Assembly: GCA_012523975.1 (NCBI GenBank)
Contig: JAAYSF010000051.1
Location: 1-44,084 of the forward strand
Reading direction: 5' to 3'
Origin: Veillonellaceae bacterium
GTDB lineage: Bacteria; Bacillota; Negativicutes; JAAYSF01
DNA: 44,084 bases
Both the position numbers and the translations under genes were made by a program. Numbering within the stretch: position 1 is the stretch's first letter; every line of letters starts with the position of its first letter. Positions 32,268-44,084 of the stretch are shown here, piece by piece. Under the pieces are notes generated by a model. That model saw nothing but the letters and a program-made list of their open reading frames with translations, searched no databases and was not told where the DNA came from.

Positions 32268-33335
32268 TTATAAGTATTTCATTACTTGCTCGCCCATTTC
32301 CTGCGTTGTGACTTTGATACAACCCGGTCTATAAAGATCGGACGTACGATAGCCTGCCTCTAATACCTTTTCCACCGCCTGCTCAATTTTATCAGCTATT
32401 GCCGCTTGATCAAGCGAATAGCGAAACATCATTGCTGCAGATAAGATCGTCCCCAGCGGATTGGCAATACCCTGGCCGGCAATATCAGGCGCTGAACCAT
32501 GAATTGGTTCATATAGGCCAGGCCCATCTCCAATACTGGCTGAAGGCAGCATACCAATTGAGCCGGTAATAACCGCCGCTTCATCACTTAGAATATCACC
32601 AAAAAGATTGCCGGTAACAACAACATCAAAGTTTGACGGAGCCAAGACTAACTGCATCGCGCAGTTGTCGATATAAAGGTGGTTTAAGCGGACATCAGGG
32701 AAGGCCTTGACCGTTTTCTCCGCAGTCCGACGCCATAATCTTGATGAGGCTAGAACATTAGCTTTGTCGACTGAAACTACCGATTTACGTCTCATTTCAG
32801 CGATTCGGCAGGCCATTTTGACAATCCGGCTTACTTCTTGGTCATTATAGATTTCTGTATCCCAGGCTTGCTCTACATCTCCAACAAGGCTGGCTTCCGA
32901 CCGAGGACCATAATAGATGCCACCGTTTAACTCCCGGACTATTACCATATCAACATCAGTCACAACCTCAGGCTTTAGCGGCGAAAAGCCCGCAAGAGCA
33001 GGAAAAACCCTGATGGGACGGAGATTGGCATACAATCCAAGTGCTTTTCTTAGTCCTAGAATGGCCTTTTCGGGCCGCAGTTCCGGCGCAACATTATCCC
33101 AAGCCGGCCCCCCAACTGCCCCTAGAAGAATAGCATCAGCAGATAGGCAGCTATTTACAGTGTCCTCAGGCAAAGGCTTACCATAACGGTCAATGGCGTC
33201 GCCGCCCGCAGCTTTAGTTTCGAAGTTCAAACTAACCCCGCTATTGCGGACGGCTGCCTGACAAACCTTTACTGCTTGTTCAGTTATCTCAGGTCCAATA
33301 CCATCGCCCGGAATTACTACGATGTTCTTATTCAC
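32268..33335 (-). CDS. leuB: 3-Isopropylmalate dehydrogenase
   Basis: A 355-residue NAD enzyme that oxidises and decarboxylates 3-isopropylmalate to 2-ketoisocaproate. It starts NIVVIPGDGIGPEITEQAV. Substrate residues lie in LGLYANLRPIRVFPAL and VRELNGGIYYGPRSE. The metal-binding Asp are in LFGDILSDEAAVITGSIGMLPSAS, followed by the NAD motif EPIHGSAPDIAGQGIANP. The start is a GTG at 33335, after AAGGAGGAG, sharing one base with the leuD stop. It is the last gene of leuACDB. Confidence 0.97.
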   Translation of the reverse strand: MNKNIVVIPGDGIGPEITEQAVKVCQAAVRNSGVSLNFETKAAGGDAIDRYGKPLPEDTVNSCLSADAILLGAVGGPAWDNVAPELRPEKAILGLRKALGLYANLRPIRVFPALAGFSPLKPEVVTDVDMVIVRELNGGIYYGPRSEASLVGDVEQAWDTEIYNDQEVSRIVKMACRIAEMRRKSVVSVDKANVLASSRLWRRTAEKTVKAFPDVRLNHLYIDNCAMQLVLAPSNFDVVVTGNLFGDILSDEAAVITGSIGMLPSASIGDGPGLYEPIHGSAPDIAGQGIANPLGTILSAAMMFRYSLDQAAIADKIEQAVEKVLEAGYRTSDLYRPGCIKVTTQEMGEQVMKYL

Positions 33336-33823
33336 TACCGCTCCTCCTTTACAAAATTGATCAAGCCCCCGGCTTGAGCAATTTTCTGAATAAACGGCGG
33401 CAATGAAGGAGCCTGGAATACTTCACCGGTTGTAACATTTTCTACTTTTCCGGCTGCAGCGTCGACTCTTATCTGGTCACCGTTGTTAAAATGATTAACC
33501 GCATCGCCAAGTTCAATAAGCGGCAAGCCAATGTTGATGGCATTTCGATAGAATATCCGCGCAAAACTATCGGCAATCACGCAGGTAATGCCCGCAGCTT
33601 TGATTGCCACCGGCGCGTGCTCCCGTGATGAACCGCAGCCGAAGTTCCGGCCTGCAACAATAATTTCACCTTGCTGCACCGCATCGGCAAACGAGGGATC
33701 GATATCCTCCATACAGTGCTTAGCCAGTTCAGCTGGATCTGAGGTGTTCAAATACCGAGCCGGAATTATAACATCAGTATCAACATTGTCGCCATAACGC
33801 CAGATTTTCCCTTCAAGAATCAT
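33335..33823 (-). CDS. leuD: 3-Isopropylmalate dehydratase small subunit
   Basis: A 162-residue swivel domain. Motifs are [43 protein letters not shown] and [14 protein letters not shown]. The short length is the type paired with the ~420-residue LeuC found in Clostridia and archaea. ATG at 33823 overlaps the leuC stop by 4 bases and follows GGGAGG. It isomerises 2- to 3-isopropylmalate together with LeuC. Confidence 0.96.
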
Positions 33824-35082
33824 GCTAATACCTCCCATGGAGCAGCGATCCGTCCGAGAACTGCACTTGCCGCCGCTACGGCCGGCCCTGCCAAATAAAC
33901 TTCACTGTCAACATGGCCCATCCGGCCCCTAAAATTGCGGTTTGTTGTTGAAACCGCCCGTTCCCCGGCTGCCATGATTCCCATATAACCGCCTAAACAC
34001 GGTCCGCAGGTAGGGGTGCTGACGACGGCGCCGGCCTTGATAAAGGTCTCAATATAGCCTGCTTCCATAGCCTGCAGGTAAACTTGCTGACTACCCGGGA
34101 TAATTATAGCCCGCACATCCGGGTGGACAGCTTTTCCCTTCAGTACTGCTGCTGCCTGAGCCAAGTCTTCTAATCTCCCGTTGGTACAAGAGCCAATGAC
34201 CACCTGTTGAATTATCACCTCATCAATTTCAGTAACCGGGTGAACGTTCTCGGGTAAATGCGGGAAGGCTACCACTGGTTTTAGTTCACTTAAATTAATT
34301 TTTACTGTTCGACAGTAACGGGCATCATCATCAGCTGTTACCGGCTGGTAATCCTTCTTAACTCTAGTCTTTATATATTCCATTGCTATCTTATCAACTG
34401 GGAATATCCCATTCTTCGCCCCGGCCTCAATTGCCATATTAGCAATCGTCAGCCTGTCGGCCATCGTCAAAGCGGCTACACCGTCGCCGCAGAACTCCAA
34501 AGACTGGTACCGGGCGCCATCTACTCCGATTTCACCGATAAGCGTTAAAATAACGTCCTTGCCGGTCACCCATTGGGGCAGCTCTCCGGTTAGCTCTACT
34601 TTTATGCTGGGAGGTACCTTAAACCAAGCTTTGCCTGTTGCCATTGCCGCTCCGACATCGGTAGATCCAACCCCGGTGGCAAAAGCCCCAACCGCGCCAT
34701 AGGTACAGGTGTGAGAATCGGCGCCGATAATCACCTCACCGGGCGCTACCAAGCCCTGCTCGGGCAGAAGCACATGCTCTATTCCCATTCTGCCGACCTC
34801 AAAGTAGTTGTTGATTTTGTGTTTCTTGACAAACTCCCGCATAATTTTAGCCATCTCAGCGGATTTAATATCTTTGTTAGGCGTAAAGTGATCGGGAACC
34901 AGGACAATCTTGTCAGTATCAAATACCGGTTTGCCGATTTTTTCAAACTCTTTTGCCGCTGGCGGAAAGGTAATATCATTAGCTAACACTACATCAACGC
35001 TGCACTCAATTAATTGGCCAGGCTCGACTGCCGGCAGCTGTGCATGACGAGCCATGATTTTTTCGGTCATTGTCATTCCCAT
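33820..35082 (-). CDS. leuC: 3-Isopropylmalate dehydratase large subunit
   Basis: A 420-residue aconitase-family subunit binding a 4Fe-4S cluster. Cluster Cys are in [13 protein letters not shown] and [35 protein letters not shown] is the other family block. It belongs to the oxygen-sensitive short LeuC type. ATG at 35082 follows GGGGGGAA, 2 bases after the leuA stop. Confidence 0.96.
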
Positions 35083-35084
35083 TC

Positions 35085-36632
35085 TTATATTCCCCCCACT
35101 GCTTCATTCTGCTTCGGGCACCCGCAGACAGCCATAATCCTATTAACGGCATTGATATACGCCCGGGCGCTTGCTTCTATTACATCAATACTGAGACCGC
35201 GTCCGATAAATGTACGGCCGTCTTGCTCCAGCCATACTGTAGCCTCGCCAAGCGCGTCCTCACCTGAAGTAACAGCTTTTAATTGATAATCTTTAAGACG
35301 AATTGTAAAACCGACAGCTTTCTCGATTGCCTTGAATGTTGCATCAACCGGACCAAAACCGCAGCTGGCCTCCTCAACGACACCACCATCTGTTTCTAAC
35401 CGTACCGAAGCTGTTGCGACCATCTGATTGCCGCTCGCAACATGGTGATAAGCCAGCCGGAAATGTTCATCAATGGCATGCTGATAATCAGCAATTAGGG
35501 CTTCAATATCACGGTCATAGACAACTTTCTTACGATCAGCAAGTTCCTTAAACTCTTTAAAGATGGCGCTAATCTCTTTGTCGGTTAATTCGTAGCCAAG
35601 ACGGGTAACTTTATCCTCAAAAGCATGCCGGCCTGAGTGTTTTCCAAGCACGATGGCGTTTTGGCTGACCCCAACCGTTTCCGGTCTGATAACCTCATAA
35701 GTGAGAGGATTGTTTAAAACTCCATGTTGATGAATGCCTGATTCATGGGCAAAAGCATTATCACCTACAATGGCTTTATTAGGCGGAACGACCACTCCGG
35801 TATAGCCGCTCACTAGACGCGAAGTGCGGTATAGCTGACGAGTATCGATATTAGTCACGGCCTGGTAATACTCTTTTCTGGTTGCTAAGGCCATTACTAA
35901 TTCTTCCATCGCGGCATTTCCGGCCCGTTCACCGATTCCGTTGACAGTGCACTCAATCTGCCTGGCGCCGTTAGCGATAGCAGCCAGCGAATTTGCAACA
36001 GCCATCCCCAAATCATCATGACAGTGGACACTGATAACCGCCTTGTCGATATCACTAACAGTATTCTTCAAATGAGCAATCAGTGCGCCGAATTCGCCCG
36101 GCGTCGAATAACCAACGGTATCGGGGACATTAATTACATTAGCACCTGCCGCAATAACGGCGCTATAAACTTGGGTAAGGAAATTCCAATCCGACCGTGA
36201 GGCATCCTCGCATGAAAATTCAATGTCTGAGGTGAACTTCTTTGCATAACGAACAGCTTCTACTGCTCGCGCCAGCATTTCGTCTCTGGTCATTTTGAGT
36301 TTATATTCAAGATGAATATCACTCGATGCTAGGAAAACATGAATCCTAGGATTTTCAGCCTGACGCAGTGCCTCCCTTGCAACATCGATATCTTTCTTGT
36401 CTGCTCTTGCTAAACCCGCTACTACTGTACCTTTCACAGCCGCCGCTATTTGGCTGACTGCAGCGAAATCACCGGGCGAGGCAACAGGAAAGCCAGCCTC
36501 AATTACATCAACCCGCAGTTTTGCTAATGCCTGAGCCAGTTCAATTTTCTCGCGTACATCAAGGCAAACACCTGGTGTTTGTTCGCCATCGCGTAATGTC
36601 GTGTCAAAAATTTTAATTACTCTAGTATCCAT
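35085..36632 (-). CDS. leuA: 2-Isopropylmalate synthase
   Basis: A 515-residue enzyme that condenses acetyl-CoA with 2-ketoisovalerate, the committed step to leucine. The catalytic barrel has [14 protein letters not shown], metal His in [19 protein letters not shown], and [18 protein letters not shown]. The C-terminal regulatory domain (from about residue 390) is complete and normally binds leucine for feedback control. ATG at 36632 follows TAGGAGG. Its leader carries two tandem RNA switches. Confidence 0.96.
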
Positions 36633-36674
36633 AAAAATCGCCTCCTAATTATTAGTGCTGGGGTAGAAAAGGTA

Positions 36675-36940
36675 AAAAATAAAACGCCCCTATTGGCAGT
36701 TTCCTGCCAATAGGGGCGTTAACAACGCGGTACCACCCTACTTGAATCTCATTGCGCCGAATATCTTCGGCTGGCTGTAACGGAACCACCGCTTTTGCCT
36801 AAAATATACCACACTTAGTATGCAATATACATTCAGCAAAAGAGTTCATGGGCGAGCGTTCAGTAAAGGATCGTACCGATTTCCACCAGCCATCGGCTCT
36901 CTGTTACAATCCCGTCACCAATGTTCCCAATCATAACTTT
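36675..36940 (-). promoter_or_regulatory. T-box leader (leucine specifier) of leuA
   Basis: On the minus strand the conserved stem I piece AGAGAGCCGATGGCTGGTGG is followed by the apical AAATCGG arm. The T-box bulge sequence AGGGTGGTACCGCG lies at 36726-36739. A terminator with arms ACGCCCCTATTGGCAG / CTGCCAATAGGGGCGT (36684-36699 / 36704-36719) is followed by a T-rich tract. A CTC triplet (minus strand 36856-36854) sits in the expected specifier loop, next to the TGGG/CCCA lower stem, and is followed by G, fitting tRNA-Leu(GAG). Uncharged tRNA would stabilise the antiterminator and turn leuACDB on. Confidence 0.93.
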
Positions 36941-36971
36941 TTACGTTTCATATTCTGATTATTTTCTAACT

Positions 36972-37102
36972 AAAAAAAACCTCACGAAAAATCCATGATG
37001 GAACTTTCCGCAAGGGTCTTTTATACCCACGGTGTTGGCTCATTTAAGAGCCCTGTGCCGCTTGGACCTGCGCTTTTCAGCCGGAACCCTAGGCACACTT
37101 CC
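36972..37102 (-). promoter_or_regulatory. ykkC subtype-2 riboswitch, probable ppGpp class, with terminator
   Basis: On the minus strand the leader has GTGCCTAGGGTTCCGG (37096-37081), then CAGGTCCAAGCGGCACAGGG, ACACCGTGGGTATAAAAG and ACCCTTGCGGA. These are the conserved blocks of the ykkC RNA family, and the GCGGCAC...GTGGG form fits subtype 2 (ppGpp/PRPP binders) rather than guanidine-I. A GGAA/TTCC pair can close P1 (37099-37102 with the GTTCC end near 37000). An intrinsic terminator follows: stem 36980-37015, then eight T (36979-36972). Its 5' arm is the 3' end of the aptamer, so ligand binding should prevent termination (an ON switch). The leu context favours ppGpp over PRPP. Confidence 0.85.
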
Positions 37103-37132
37103 ATTATACAAAGTAATAACTGATTTTTGTTT

Positions 37133-37161
37133 ATAGTAACAGATTAAGTGGCGGGGGTCAA
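37133..37161 (-). promoter_or_regulatory. Promoter of the leu operon
   Basis: On the minus strand TTGACC (37156-37161) and TACTAT (37133-37138) are separated by exactly 17 bases, just past the glpC stop. The start of transcription near 37125 would include the full riboswitch. A TATAAT at 37103-37108 is too close to the aptamer and lacks a -35 box. Confidence 0.6.
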
Positions 37162-37173
37162 GACTTTTTTATA

Positions 37174-38382
37174 CTAAGTTTGATTATTTTTCTCATATGC
37201 TCTCCGTAAAACCGATAGCGGATGACATGTCGTTGCTCCTGAACCATGCTCGATTTGCAGCCGGCATGTTCCGCACTCTGAGATAACAGCGTCTATTTTG
37301 CTGGCCTTAATCTTATCAAAAAGCTTTCGGCCAATCCTCATTGCAATGTCATATTTATCTGCTTTAAGTCCATAACTGCCGGAAATCCCACAACAGCCGG
37401 CATCAACATCTTGAGTTGTAGGGCCCGGTACCATTCCCAGCAAATCAAGCGCTGGCAGACCCATTCCTTGAACTCGCAGATGGCAAGGCGCATGGTATAG
37501 ATACCGCTCATTTAATAGGCTGAAATTAGTATTCAGCCGCCCTTCGTCATGAAGTTTTAGTAGAAATTCTGACGCATCATATAAATGTTTGGCATTCTCA
37601 TTAACCTGTTCAGAAGCGAATAATTCCTGATATTCCTGCTTCAACATTAAAAGACAGCTCGTGCAACCCATAATAATCGGATAGCCAAGATCGATCCACT
37701 TTTGTAAAGTTTGAGTATTCTGATGAACATTTTGCTTAGCTTCGTCAAAAAAGCCGTTTACAATCAAGGGCGACCCGCAGCATGCGAAAGCTTCGTCAAC
37801 TATCACCTCGTATTTATTGGCCTGCATTACCGCTACAATATCCAAACCAACTTGCGGATCATTAAAATTTATATAACAACCAACATAAAACACCACTTTA
37901 TCAGGATAGCTTTGCTGGCGCAGCATTTTAAACTGTTTTATAAACGACTTGCCGACAAAATGGGGTATTGGCGCTTTATCGGAAATACCGACTAAGTCCA
38001 TCAGCCCTAACTTACGCCCAATTGCCATTCCCATATTCGTAAAAACAGCCGGGAGAGATTCACTTAGTTTGCCCATGCGCTCCCCATGCGAAAGCAGACG
38101 GTCTCTCAGCTTAGGTTTAAAACTTTTATAATATTTTGCTCTGGCCAGCATATTAAGTGTTGAAATCGGTACACCGGACGGACAAGCTATATCACAATTC
38201 TTACAGTTTGTGCAATAATCTAATGACGGCTCATAGTCATCCTGCGATAACCGCATCCTCTCTAAGGCTGGCCCAACCATTTTCGGGCCGCGGAAATTAG
38301 GAGTCGCTGCTGCTACAGGACAATGAGCAACACAAACAGTACAAGCTGTGCATTTATCCGGATTATTCAGATGTTTCTTCAT
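37174..38382 (-). CDS. glpC: Anaerobic glycerol-3-phosphate dehydrogenase subunit C
   Basis: A 402-residue iron-sulfur subunit. The N-terminus has two 4Fe-4S motifs (CTACTVCVAHCPV and CTNCKNCDIACPSGVP). Two CCG-type domains follow (VGCYINF ... ACCGSPLIVNGF and HAPCHLRVQGMG ... GCCGISGSYG), as in HdrB-like electron carriers. It links the GlpAB catalytic dimer to the membrane quinone pool. ATG at 38382 follows GGGGAGAGG. It is the last gene of glpFKABC. No terminator is evident before the leu promoter, so some read-through into the leu leader is possible. Confidence 0.93.
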   Translation of the reverse strand: MKKHLNNPDKCTACTVCVAHCPVAAATPNFRGPKMVGPALERMRLSQDDYEPSLDYCTNCKNCDIACPSGVPISTLNMLARAKYYKSFKPKLRDRLLSHGERMGKLSESLPAVFTNMGMAIGRKLGLMDLVGISDKAPIPHFVGKSFIKQFKMLRQQSYPDKVVFYVGCYINFNDPQVGLDIVAVMQANKYEVIVDEAFACCGSPLIVNGFFDEAKQNVHQNTQTLQKWIDLGYPIIMGCTSCLLMLKQEYQELFASEQVNENAKHLYDASEFLLKLHDEGRLNTNFSLLNERYLYHAPCHLRVQGMGLPALDLLGMVPGPTTQDVDAGCCGISGSYGLKADKYDIAMRIGRKLFDKIKASKIDAVISECGTCRLQIEHGSGATTCHPLSVLRRAYEKNNQT

Positions 38383-38395
38383 TGTACCTCTCCCC

Positions 38396-39637
38396 TTAGA
38401 CCGACATAGCTGCTTTATATCCTGATGAAACAGCGACTCCATTCCCGGACTTTTCGAAACAATAGTCGTAGCCGGCTAAAGTACGACCGGCGATACAAAC
38501 ATTTGATAAAATCGTCGTTCCTGTTTCATCAATCGGCCGCATTCTCTGGTCGACTGCTATGCCAATCTTAGCAAATGGCTGTTCCCGATTTGAAAATAAT
38601 GTCTGATTCGTCCAATTATCCCGCTCTAAAGGAGTTTTAACCGGCAGGTTGAAAATCGGTTCTATCACCTGATCAGAGTTGGCAATAAGTCCGCCGCCAT
38701 AAATTCCGCCGGTTGCCAGGATAAAACTTTTTGCATAATAAGAACGCTGACGGTCAGCACTCTCAGTCACTACAGCTAGGCATCTGCCGTTTTCAATCAC
38801 CGACCCGGTTACCACAGCCTGCTCAATAACTTTTACACCTAGCTTTTTCACATGATTGATAAGCAAACTGCGCAGCCTTAGTCCGGTTATTGCTGGCGGT
38901 ATCGTCACAGTTTCCAGCAAATAGCACTCAAGGTTCTTTTTAAGCCAATTAAGAATCCTATAATCAGGACTTGTACCGAGCACCGGCGGCATGATTAGCA
39001 AACTGCCCCGCTTCACTTTTTGACTAAGCTGAACAGCAAATTCTTTGAGTCCTTCATCTGTTTCCAGCCAACGCGCAATATCAAGGTTGCTTAAATCGCG
39101 GCCGCCAAATGGAGGAGTTATCGTTACGATTTCATAATTGCCGCCATAACCAGGCATAGCAGCTAGATTTTGGGCAATTAACCGGGGATAAAAGTCTTTG
39201 AGATATTTAAAGCCTACGATTATTCTGTTTGTTGTTTTTTCAAGACTACTGATATCCATGGTTCTAGGCACTATGCAAGTCGGTTTCAAGGTCCCCGCTG
39301 CAGTCGGTATCCATTGTATCTGATTACAGCTGCCAATTTGCGGATAACCTTCTTCTTGGCATATCTTAAGGAAATAATTAATAGCTTCTTCTACTGTTTC
39401 AACACCAATCTTACGATAGGGATGCTCTTGTGCCAGTCTGGGAATGGCGGCAATCGGATTATTTGCCGGGCTTCCATCACCCAGGCAGCCAAGAATATCG
39501 ATTATACCTCCGGCAATTGTGAGTGTCCCTGCGCCTTGCGCTAAAAGAGTAACCTTTTTGCCCTGCCCTGCCGCTGTCGAGGCTGCAACAAGACCTGCTA
39601 AACCACTGCCAATTACAACAATGTCACTCTTCCGCAT
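38396..39637 (-). CDS. glpB: Anaerobic glycerol-3-phosphate dehydrogenase subunit B
   Basis: A 413-residue flavoprotein subunit. It begins with the FAD-binding motif SDIVVIGSGLAGLVAASTAA and has later blocks FILATGGIYGGGLIAN and the C-terminal NVCIAGRTLAGYDYCFEKSGNGVAVSSG. Length is close to Escherichia coli GlpB. I chose ATG at 39637, which gives the family-like N-terminus; a GTG overlapping the glpA stop (39724) would add 29 residues that run through a hairpin. The ribosome site GGGGCG is weak, so translation may depend on the upstream hairpin or on coupling to glpA. Confidence 0.88.
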   Translation of the reverse strand: MRKSDIVVIGSGLAGLVAASTAAGQGKKVTLLAQGAGTLTIAGGIIDILGCLGDGSPANNPIAAIPRLAQEHPYRKIGVETVEEAINYFLKICQEEGYPQIGSCNQIQWIPTAAGTLKPTCIVPRTMDISSLEKTTNRIIVGFKYLKDFYPRLIAQNLAAMPGYGGNYEIVTITPPFGGRDLSNLDIARWLETDEGLKEFAVQLSQKVKRGSLLIMPPVLGTSPDYRILNWLKKNLECYLLETVTIPPAITGLRLRSLLINHVKKLGVKVIEQAVVTGSVIENGRCLAVVTESADRQRSYYAKSFILATGGIYGGGLIANSDQVIEPIFNLPVKTPLERDNWTNQTLFSNREQPFAKIGIAVDQRMRPIDETGTTILSNVCIAGRTLAGYDYCFEKSGNGVAVSSGYKAAMSV

Positions 39638-43967: not shown

Positions 43968-43972
43968 AATTA

Positions 43973-44084
43973 ACCAGCGACTCTCTATCCTCCCAGGCCG
44001 TTTCCAGCCAAGTACTTTCGACGTATATGGGCTTAACTACTGTGTTCGGTATGGGAACAGGTGGAACCCCATAGCTATCGCCAC
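43973..44084 (-). rRNA. rrf: 5S ribosomal RNA (5' end cut by window edge)
   Basis: The minus strand reads GTGGCGATAGCTATGGGGTT, CACCTGTTCCCATACCGAAC, then ACAGTAGTTAAGC and GTACTTGGCTGGAAACGGCC, which are universal 5S segments. The 3' end GTCGCTGG pairs with the visible GTGGC of helix I. Only about 3-5 bases of the 5' end are missing. The operon is transcribed toward the glp genes. Confidence 0.95.

Follow-up and report, generated by a model that had tools for sequence, protein, structure and literature searches.

The leucine biosynthesis operon leuACDB of a Veillonellaceae bacterium is preceded by a leader in which a first-pass annotation, made from the DNA letters alone, had placed two RNA switches in a row, and the locus thus raises the question of which signals the operon would answer to and whether both of them would be needed for its expression. 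The leader lies on a contig of 44,084 nucleotides (GenBank JAAYSF010000051.1, positions 1 to 44,084), the whole of which is referred to here as the window.

Organisation of the leuACDB leader

The leader is encoded by the minus strand, with glpC (37174-38442) upstream of it and leuA (35085-36632) downstream, the latter being followed by leuC, leuD and leuB; the gene order leuA-leuC-leuD-leuB was upheld by NCBIfam, and these amino acid biosynthesis genes provide the gene context of a ppGpp riboswitch. Close relatives of LeuA were from Sporomusa (72% identity), and the window is accordingly placed in a relative of that genus, in the class Negativicutes. All elements named in the first-pass annotation were found on the minus strand at or near the positions given there, and its central description, of a ykkC block with its own terminator followed by a CTC T-box with a second terminator, all between one promoter and leuA, was borne out. 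It had also placed the aptamer correctly, with a minor correction to the extent, as the aptamer together with helix P0 reaches approximately 37104. From 5' to 3' the leader comprises a promoter-like site, a ykkC-type aptamer, terminator 1, the T-box, terminator 2, an AGGAGG sequence and the leuA ATG. The features are:

37133-37161, minus strand: promoter-like site, TTGACC, 17 nt, TACTAT, with TG before the -10 (extended -10); 9/12
36998-37104, minus strand: helix P0 closing the aptamer, ATGGAA (37104-37099) with TTCCAT (37003-36998); covariation in 38 related aptamers and in-silico fold
37006-37103, minus strand: core of the ykkC subtype-2a (ppGpp-type) aptamer, assigned by sequence; RF00442 45 bits, ppGpp-type model 102.3 bits (window held out), PRPP-type model 54.0 bits
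36972-37015, minus strand: intrinsic terminator 1, stem 37014-36981, U-tract 36979-36972 (eight U)
36709-36943, minus strand: T-box leader, RF00230 106.4 bits
36854-36856, minus strand: specifier codon CTC (Leu), from the covariance alignment, an alignment of 25 T-boxes and the tRNA-Leu(GAG) gene in the genome
36726-36739, minus strand: T-box core AGGGTGGTACCGCG, read from the sequence, with the TGGT bulge (36735-36732) complementary to the ACCA of tRNA-Leu(GAG)
36674-36720, minus strand: intrinsic terminator 2 (hairpin 36720-36683), the T-box expression platform; z -6.4
36641-36646, minus strand: ribosome-binding site AGGAGG before leuA, read from the sequence
35085-36632, minus strand: leuA, 2-isopropylmalate synthase (NCBIfam)
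33820-35082, minus strand: leuC, 3-isopropylmalate dehydratase large subunit (NCBIfam)
33335-33838, minus strand: leuD, 3-isopropylmalate dehydratase small subunit (NCBIfam)
32268-33335, minus strand: leuB, 3-isopropylmalate dehydrogenase (NCBIfam)

Other weak Rfam matches in the leader, to snoRNA, sRNA and miRNA families, were taken as chance. Elsewhere in the window, a 5S rRNA gene cut by the contig end was observed at 43972-44084.

Promoter and transcript layout

One promoter-like site lies upstream of both elements (TTGACC-17-TACTAT, extended -10). Taken alone, this promoter does not stand out from chance, with 3 sites detected where 2.1 would be expected, and its score of 9.5 was the weakest of 25 leaders, at the usual distance. 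Across the 25 ykkC-then-T-box leaders of the class, the best promoter in the 80 bases before the aptamer had a mean score of 11.3, compared to a mean of 7.6 for shuffled sequences, and a near-consensus promoter (score of at least 9.75, reached by 3.6% of mono-shuffled controls) stood ahead of the aptamer in 24 of 25 homologous leaders. Between the two elements, promoter scores in the 25 leaders equalled those of shuffles, except in one leader with a 638-base spacer, and an internal promoter between aptamer and T-box was rejected on these grounds. The leader holds two separate expression platforms, with two terminators and one promoter-like site ahead of both.

The genes glpF, glpK, glpA-like, glpB-like and glpC are co-directional and lie upstream of the leu leader. 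The minus strand shows no terminator-like site from the glpC stop to the leader (37103-37174). Polymerases that read through the glp genes could therefore pass into the leader, where terminator 1 may end glp transcripts as well and where both gates would still have to be passed.

The T-box and its tRNA

The identity of the T-box is beyond doubt. RF00230 matched 36943-36709 over the whole model with 106.4 bits (gathering score 93; E 1e-22), including Stem I, the specifier and the antiterminator core. The T-box is therefore complete, as had been claimed, with the CTC specifier at 36856-36854, and the genome encodes tRNA-Leu(GAG), whose anticodon fits the CTC specifier and whose ACCA end fits the TGGT bulge. 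Terminator 2 was computed at -34.1 kcal/mol, in a stretch with a folding z of -6.4, terminator 1 being much weaker. It is predicted that uncharged tRNA-Leu(GAG) would pair with the specifier and the TGGT bulge, by which the antiterminator would be stabilised over terminator 2.

Class of the first aptamer

The only Rfam family to match the aptamer with a convincing E-value was RF00442, which is named Guanidine-I (45.0 bits, E 7e-7, 37103-37006); this score is below the gathering score of 63, so that default annotation misses the aptamer of the window. Taken by its name, the match would make the first element a guanidine-I riboswitch and the operon one that answers guanidine and uncharged tRNA-Leu, as has been proposed for 'T-box plus guanidine' pairs in a 2025 survey, where tandems named 'T-box Guanidine' are described for leu and ilv operons, with guanidine stress raised as a speculation (PMC12452182). 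In a search of 120 related genomes with RF00442, ykkC RNAs were found in 51, while the source genome itself holds four. Clear guanidine-I RNAs in the related genomes scored approximately 76-92 bits and a second group mostly 45-63, so it is with the latter that the window aptamer falls by score. Both PRPP and ppGpp aptamers have a pyrimidine in place of the guanidine-I adenosine (PMC6031431), and in the window the conserved A is replaced by C at the A46 equivalent, in GGTCCAAGCGG, and the S-turn position is without G; moreover, no guanidine binding is reported for ykkC RNAs that precede branched-chain amino acid genes (PMC7266159). A guanidine-I identity was rejected by score (45.0 < 63) and by signature (C at the A46 equivalent), and is scarcely credible for this leader. 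In the 25 tandems collected here, the guanidine-I signature was present in 0 of 25 aptamers, and the 'T-box Guanidine' reading in PMC12452182 therefore very probably stems from the name given to RF00442.

From the lower-scoring group, 88 ykkC RNAs were taken and sorted by downstream gene. Those before NCS2 purine permeases, together with single purE and xpt cases, had CCC-N-G-RCGG, with the G invariant, in agreement with published descriptions of PRPP aptamers, while those before leuA, ilvN, livJ, gltB-type glutamate synthase and paaK-type ligase genes had CCC-N-GCGG or CCC-N-A/T-GCGG, without that G. According to PMC6031431, G96 distinguishes PRPP from ppGpp aptamers, being absent or replaced by A, C or U in the latter. 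Position 96 of the window aptamer, mapped by motif and not by structure, is U (CCC-T-T-GCGG).

A PRPP riboswitch (subtype 2b) would have the fold in common with the window aptamer, along with P0 and the pyrimidine at the A46 equivalent, and the window did score 54 bits on a PRPP-type model. When it was compared on covariance models that we built from the two groups of leaders with the window excluded, the group labels resting on gene context and the published signature, the aptamer scored 102.3 bits as ppGpp-type and 54.0 bits (48 bits lower) as PRPP-type. Held-out members other than the window went to the side predicted for them, L062, L080 and L007 to ppGpp and L079 to PRPP (154.7 versus 59.5). 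The G that is invariant in the purine-context group is U in the window, and a distinct PRPP-type RNA, which scored 143.5 bits on the PRPP-type model as a training member, stands before an NCS2 purine permease in this genome. The PRPP identity was accordingly rejected by score (54.0 versus 102.3) and by signature (U at position 96), and is very improbable.

The covariance search proposed in the first-pass annotation placed the T-box above its cut-off and matched the ykkC core, which is sub-threshold in Rfam, with 102.3 bits on the ppGpp-type model. A best score as guanidine-I or PRPP, which that annotation had named as the outcome that would count against it, was not obtained (102.3 bits ppGpp-type, 54.0 PRPP-type, 45.0 guanidine-I), and its subtype 2a assignment is supported by the score and by the agreeing signatures at the A46 equivalent and position 96. 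By sequence and covariation, the first element is thus a ppGpp-type (ykkC subtype 2a) aptamer, and binding of ppGpp is predicted.

Some further contexts of ykkC RNAs were observed. A PRPP-type RNA was located at L006:5372-5523, upstream of an NCS2-family purine permease, and 21 PRPP-type leaders before NCS2-family permeases were fetched from the class, the described contexts of PRPP riboswitches being mainly purine synthesis. The aptamer of the window (37103-37006) was closest in sequence to those before paaK-type (phenylacetate-CoA ligase-like) genes (L116, L090, L099, L113 and L128) and not to those of other leuA leaders, which suggests that the leuA aptamer of the window was replaced or recombined. 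Three ppGpp-type RNAs (L096, L076 and L068) were found directly or one gene ahead of LarA-like (nickel-dependent lactate racemase-type) genes. To our knowledge, LarA-like genes are not a described context for ppGpp riboswitches.

Helix P0 and the first switch

Helix P0 marks ykkC subtype 2 apart from guanidine-I. Among 38 related aptamers, 6 of the 7 P0 pairs change on both sides, with 37 such compensatory cells compared to 13.5 in shuffles, and 87% of P0 cells were paired, compared to 57-59% when the partners were slid by one column. The window has the core fold with P0 of ykkC subtype 2a, as seen in the held-out score of 102.3 bits and the P0 covariation.

Terminator 1 (-17.1 kcal/mol, folding z -4.3) takes its 5' arm from the aptamer, namely from the 3' strand of helix P3 and part of P0. 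In minimum-energy folding of growing transcripts, P3 with P0 was kept at nearly every tested transcript end from 36998 to 36982 (the exception being 36984), and the fold flipped to terminator 1 at transcript end 36980. This strand sharing, together with the modelled folding, is the layout expected of an ON switch. With ppGpp bound, P3 and P0 would hold the sequence that otherwise forms the 5' arm of terminator 1 and RNA polymerase would continue, while terminator 1 would form without ppGpp; a bound ligand would keep the aptamer in place over the short stretch from 36998 to 36982.

Related tandems and their specifiers

A second ykkC/T-box tandem was found in the same genome, on contig C16 (L005:6645-7678), ahead of ilvN-ilvC-ilvB and with the specifier GTC (valine). 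In the T-box alignment of the 25 tandems of the class, the specifiers were CTC (15), GTC (7), ATC (2) and TTC (1); covariance alignments agreed, giving GTC for another two leaders and ATC for a third. The leuA leaders had CTC in 7 of 7 cases, the ilv leaders GTC, CTC or ATC, and the livJ transporter leaders CTC, ATC or TTC; the TTC of the single leader may be a point change from CTC. It is somewhat probable that, within a single class, the ppGpp gate can take different second inputs (Leu, Val, Ile and, once, TTC), matched to the operon, in which case one genome could run several starvation gates with a common alarm input while reading different tRNAs.

No leader with the T-box first was encountered in the window's own class, while both orders were found in other classes of the phylum, for example a T-box followed by a ppGpp-type aptamer ahead of ilvE. 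Among the best 80 of a leuA scan of named genomes, no leuA-adjacent ykkC/T-box pair was found; in Sporomusa, the nearest named relatives, the tandem apparently stands ahead of ilvN, outside the flank covered by that scan. A further T-box was observed at L104:2743-2989, on the opposite strand to, and divergent from, the ilvN tandem leader of that relative.

Comparison with known systems

In Table 2 of PMC9481103 two tandems are entered as AND gates, ppGpp/T box-Leu with 15 examples and T box-Leu/ppGpp with 16, and essentially the same account is given in PMC5912903 and PMC6031431; the tandem is traced through these three papers to Sherlock, Sudarsan and Breaker 2018. The published tandem resembles the window in its elements, ppGpp-first order, separate platforms, inferred AND logic and branched-chain amino acid genes, and no essential difference was seen. 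The leader of the window is thus a further member of this published kind and, as the tandem is published in both orders, is less novel than the first-pass annotation implied. Related leaders, including that of ilvN-ilvC-ilvB in the same genome, have Val or Ile T-box partners whereas Table 2 of PMC9481103 lists T box-Leu only; the comparison being with that one catalogue, partners of the Val and Ile type may have been described before.

The ppGpp riboswitch of Desulfitobacterium hafniense ilvE, which served as a reporter in PMC12373219, is likewise a ykkC 2a aptamer controlling a terminator before a branched-chain amino acid gene but, unlike the window, that reporter has one riboswitch without a T-box. 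The ilv-leu operon of Bacillus subtilis (PMC12452182) has a Leu T-box on leu genes, as in the window, but differs in having a single T-box, CodY control and a leader without a ppGpp aptamer. In the guanine/PRPP tandem riboswitch (PMC5912903), a ykkC subtype-2 aptamer is also part of a two-input leader, but with one common expression platform and IMPLY logic, while the platforms of the window are separate.

A proposed two-input gate

In the leuACDB leader, a single promoter would be followed by two transcription-attenuation switches that act independently, one after the other. Taken as a whole, it is very likely best explained as a ppGpp riboswitch and a Leu T-box in series, with both signals needed for full expression. 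Full expression would then require the stringent-response signal and leucine shortage: under starvation for another amino acid, ppGpp would rise while tRNA-Leu stayed charged, and transcription would stop at gate 2, while mild uncharging of tRNA-Leu without ppGpp would end in a stop at gate 1. We infer this AND outcome because the layout is conserved across homologues. In keeping with a ppGpp input, the genome carries a Rel/SpoT-type gene.

Uncharged tRNA-Leu can itself trigger ppGpp synthesis via Rel, so the two inputs overlap and are not independent; when leucine runs short, the leader may behave less as a clean AND than as a raised threshold. It could be argued that the aptamer binds ppGpp without AND behaviour, one gate being leaky or both redundant, so that the leader gives a steeper threshold for one signal, leucine starvation. 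Uncharged tRNA feeds both signals, as is established for Rel. In addition, terminator 1, at -17.1 kcal/mol, falls far short of the stability of terminator 2, at -34.1 kcal/mol, which makes a leak at gate 1 plausible. Against this, both expression platforms are intact, a terminator after the aptamer was detectable in most homologues by strict scan, and gltB leaders carry the ppGpp-type switch alone, so that the switch is kept without a tRNA gate; we regard such a threshold as possible but rather unlikely. The absence of CodY, considered as a reason for the ppGpp riboswitch, was rejected, as CodY is present in the genome.

The two-signal gate makes the distinct prediction that starvation for another amino acid should leave the leu operon closed. 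Default Rfam annotation hides such switches or labels them guanidine, a label which the 2025 survey accepted for branched-chain amino acid operons. The leader would be a clean example from nature of an amino acid operon under two-signal RNA logic, and the leader with a different tRNA specificity in the same genome offers a contrast in which gate 2 varies while the class of gate 1 is constant.
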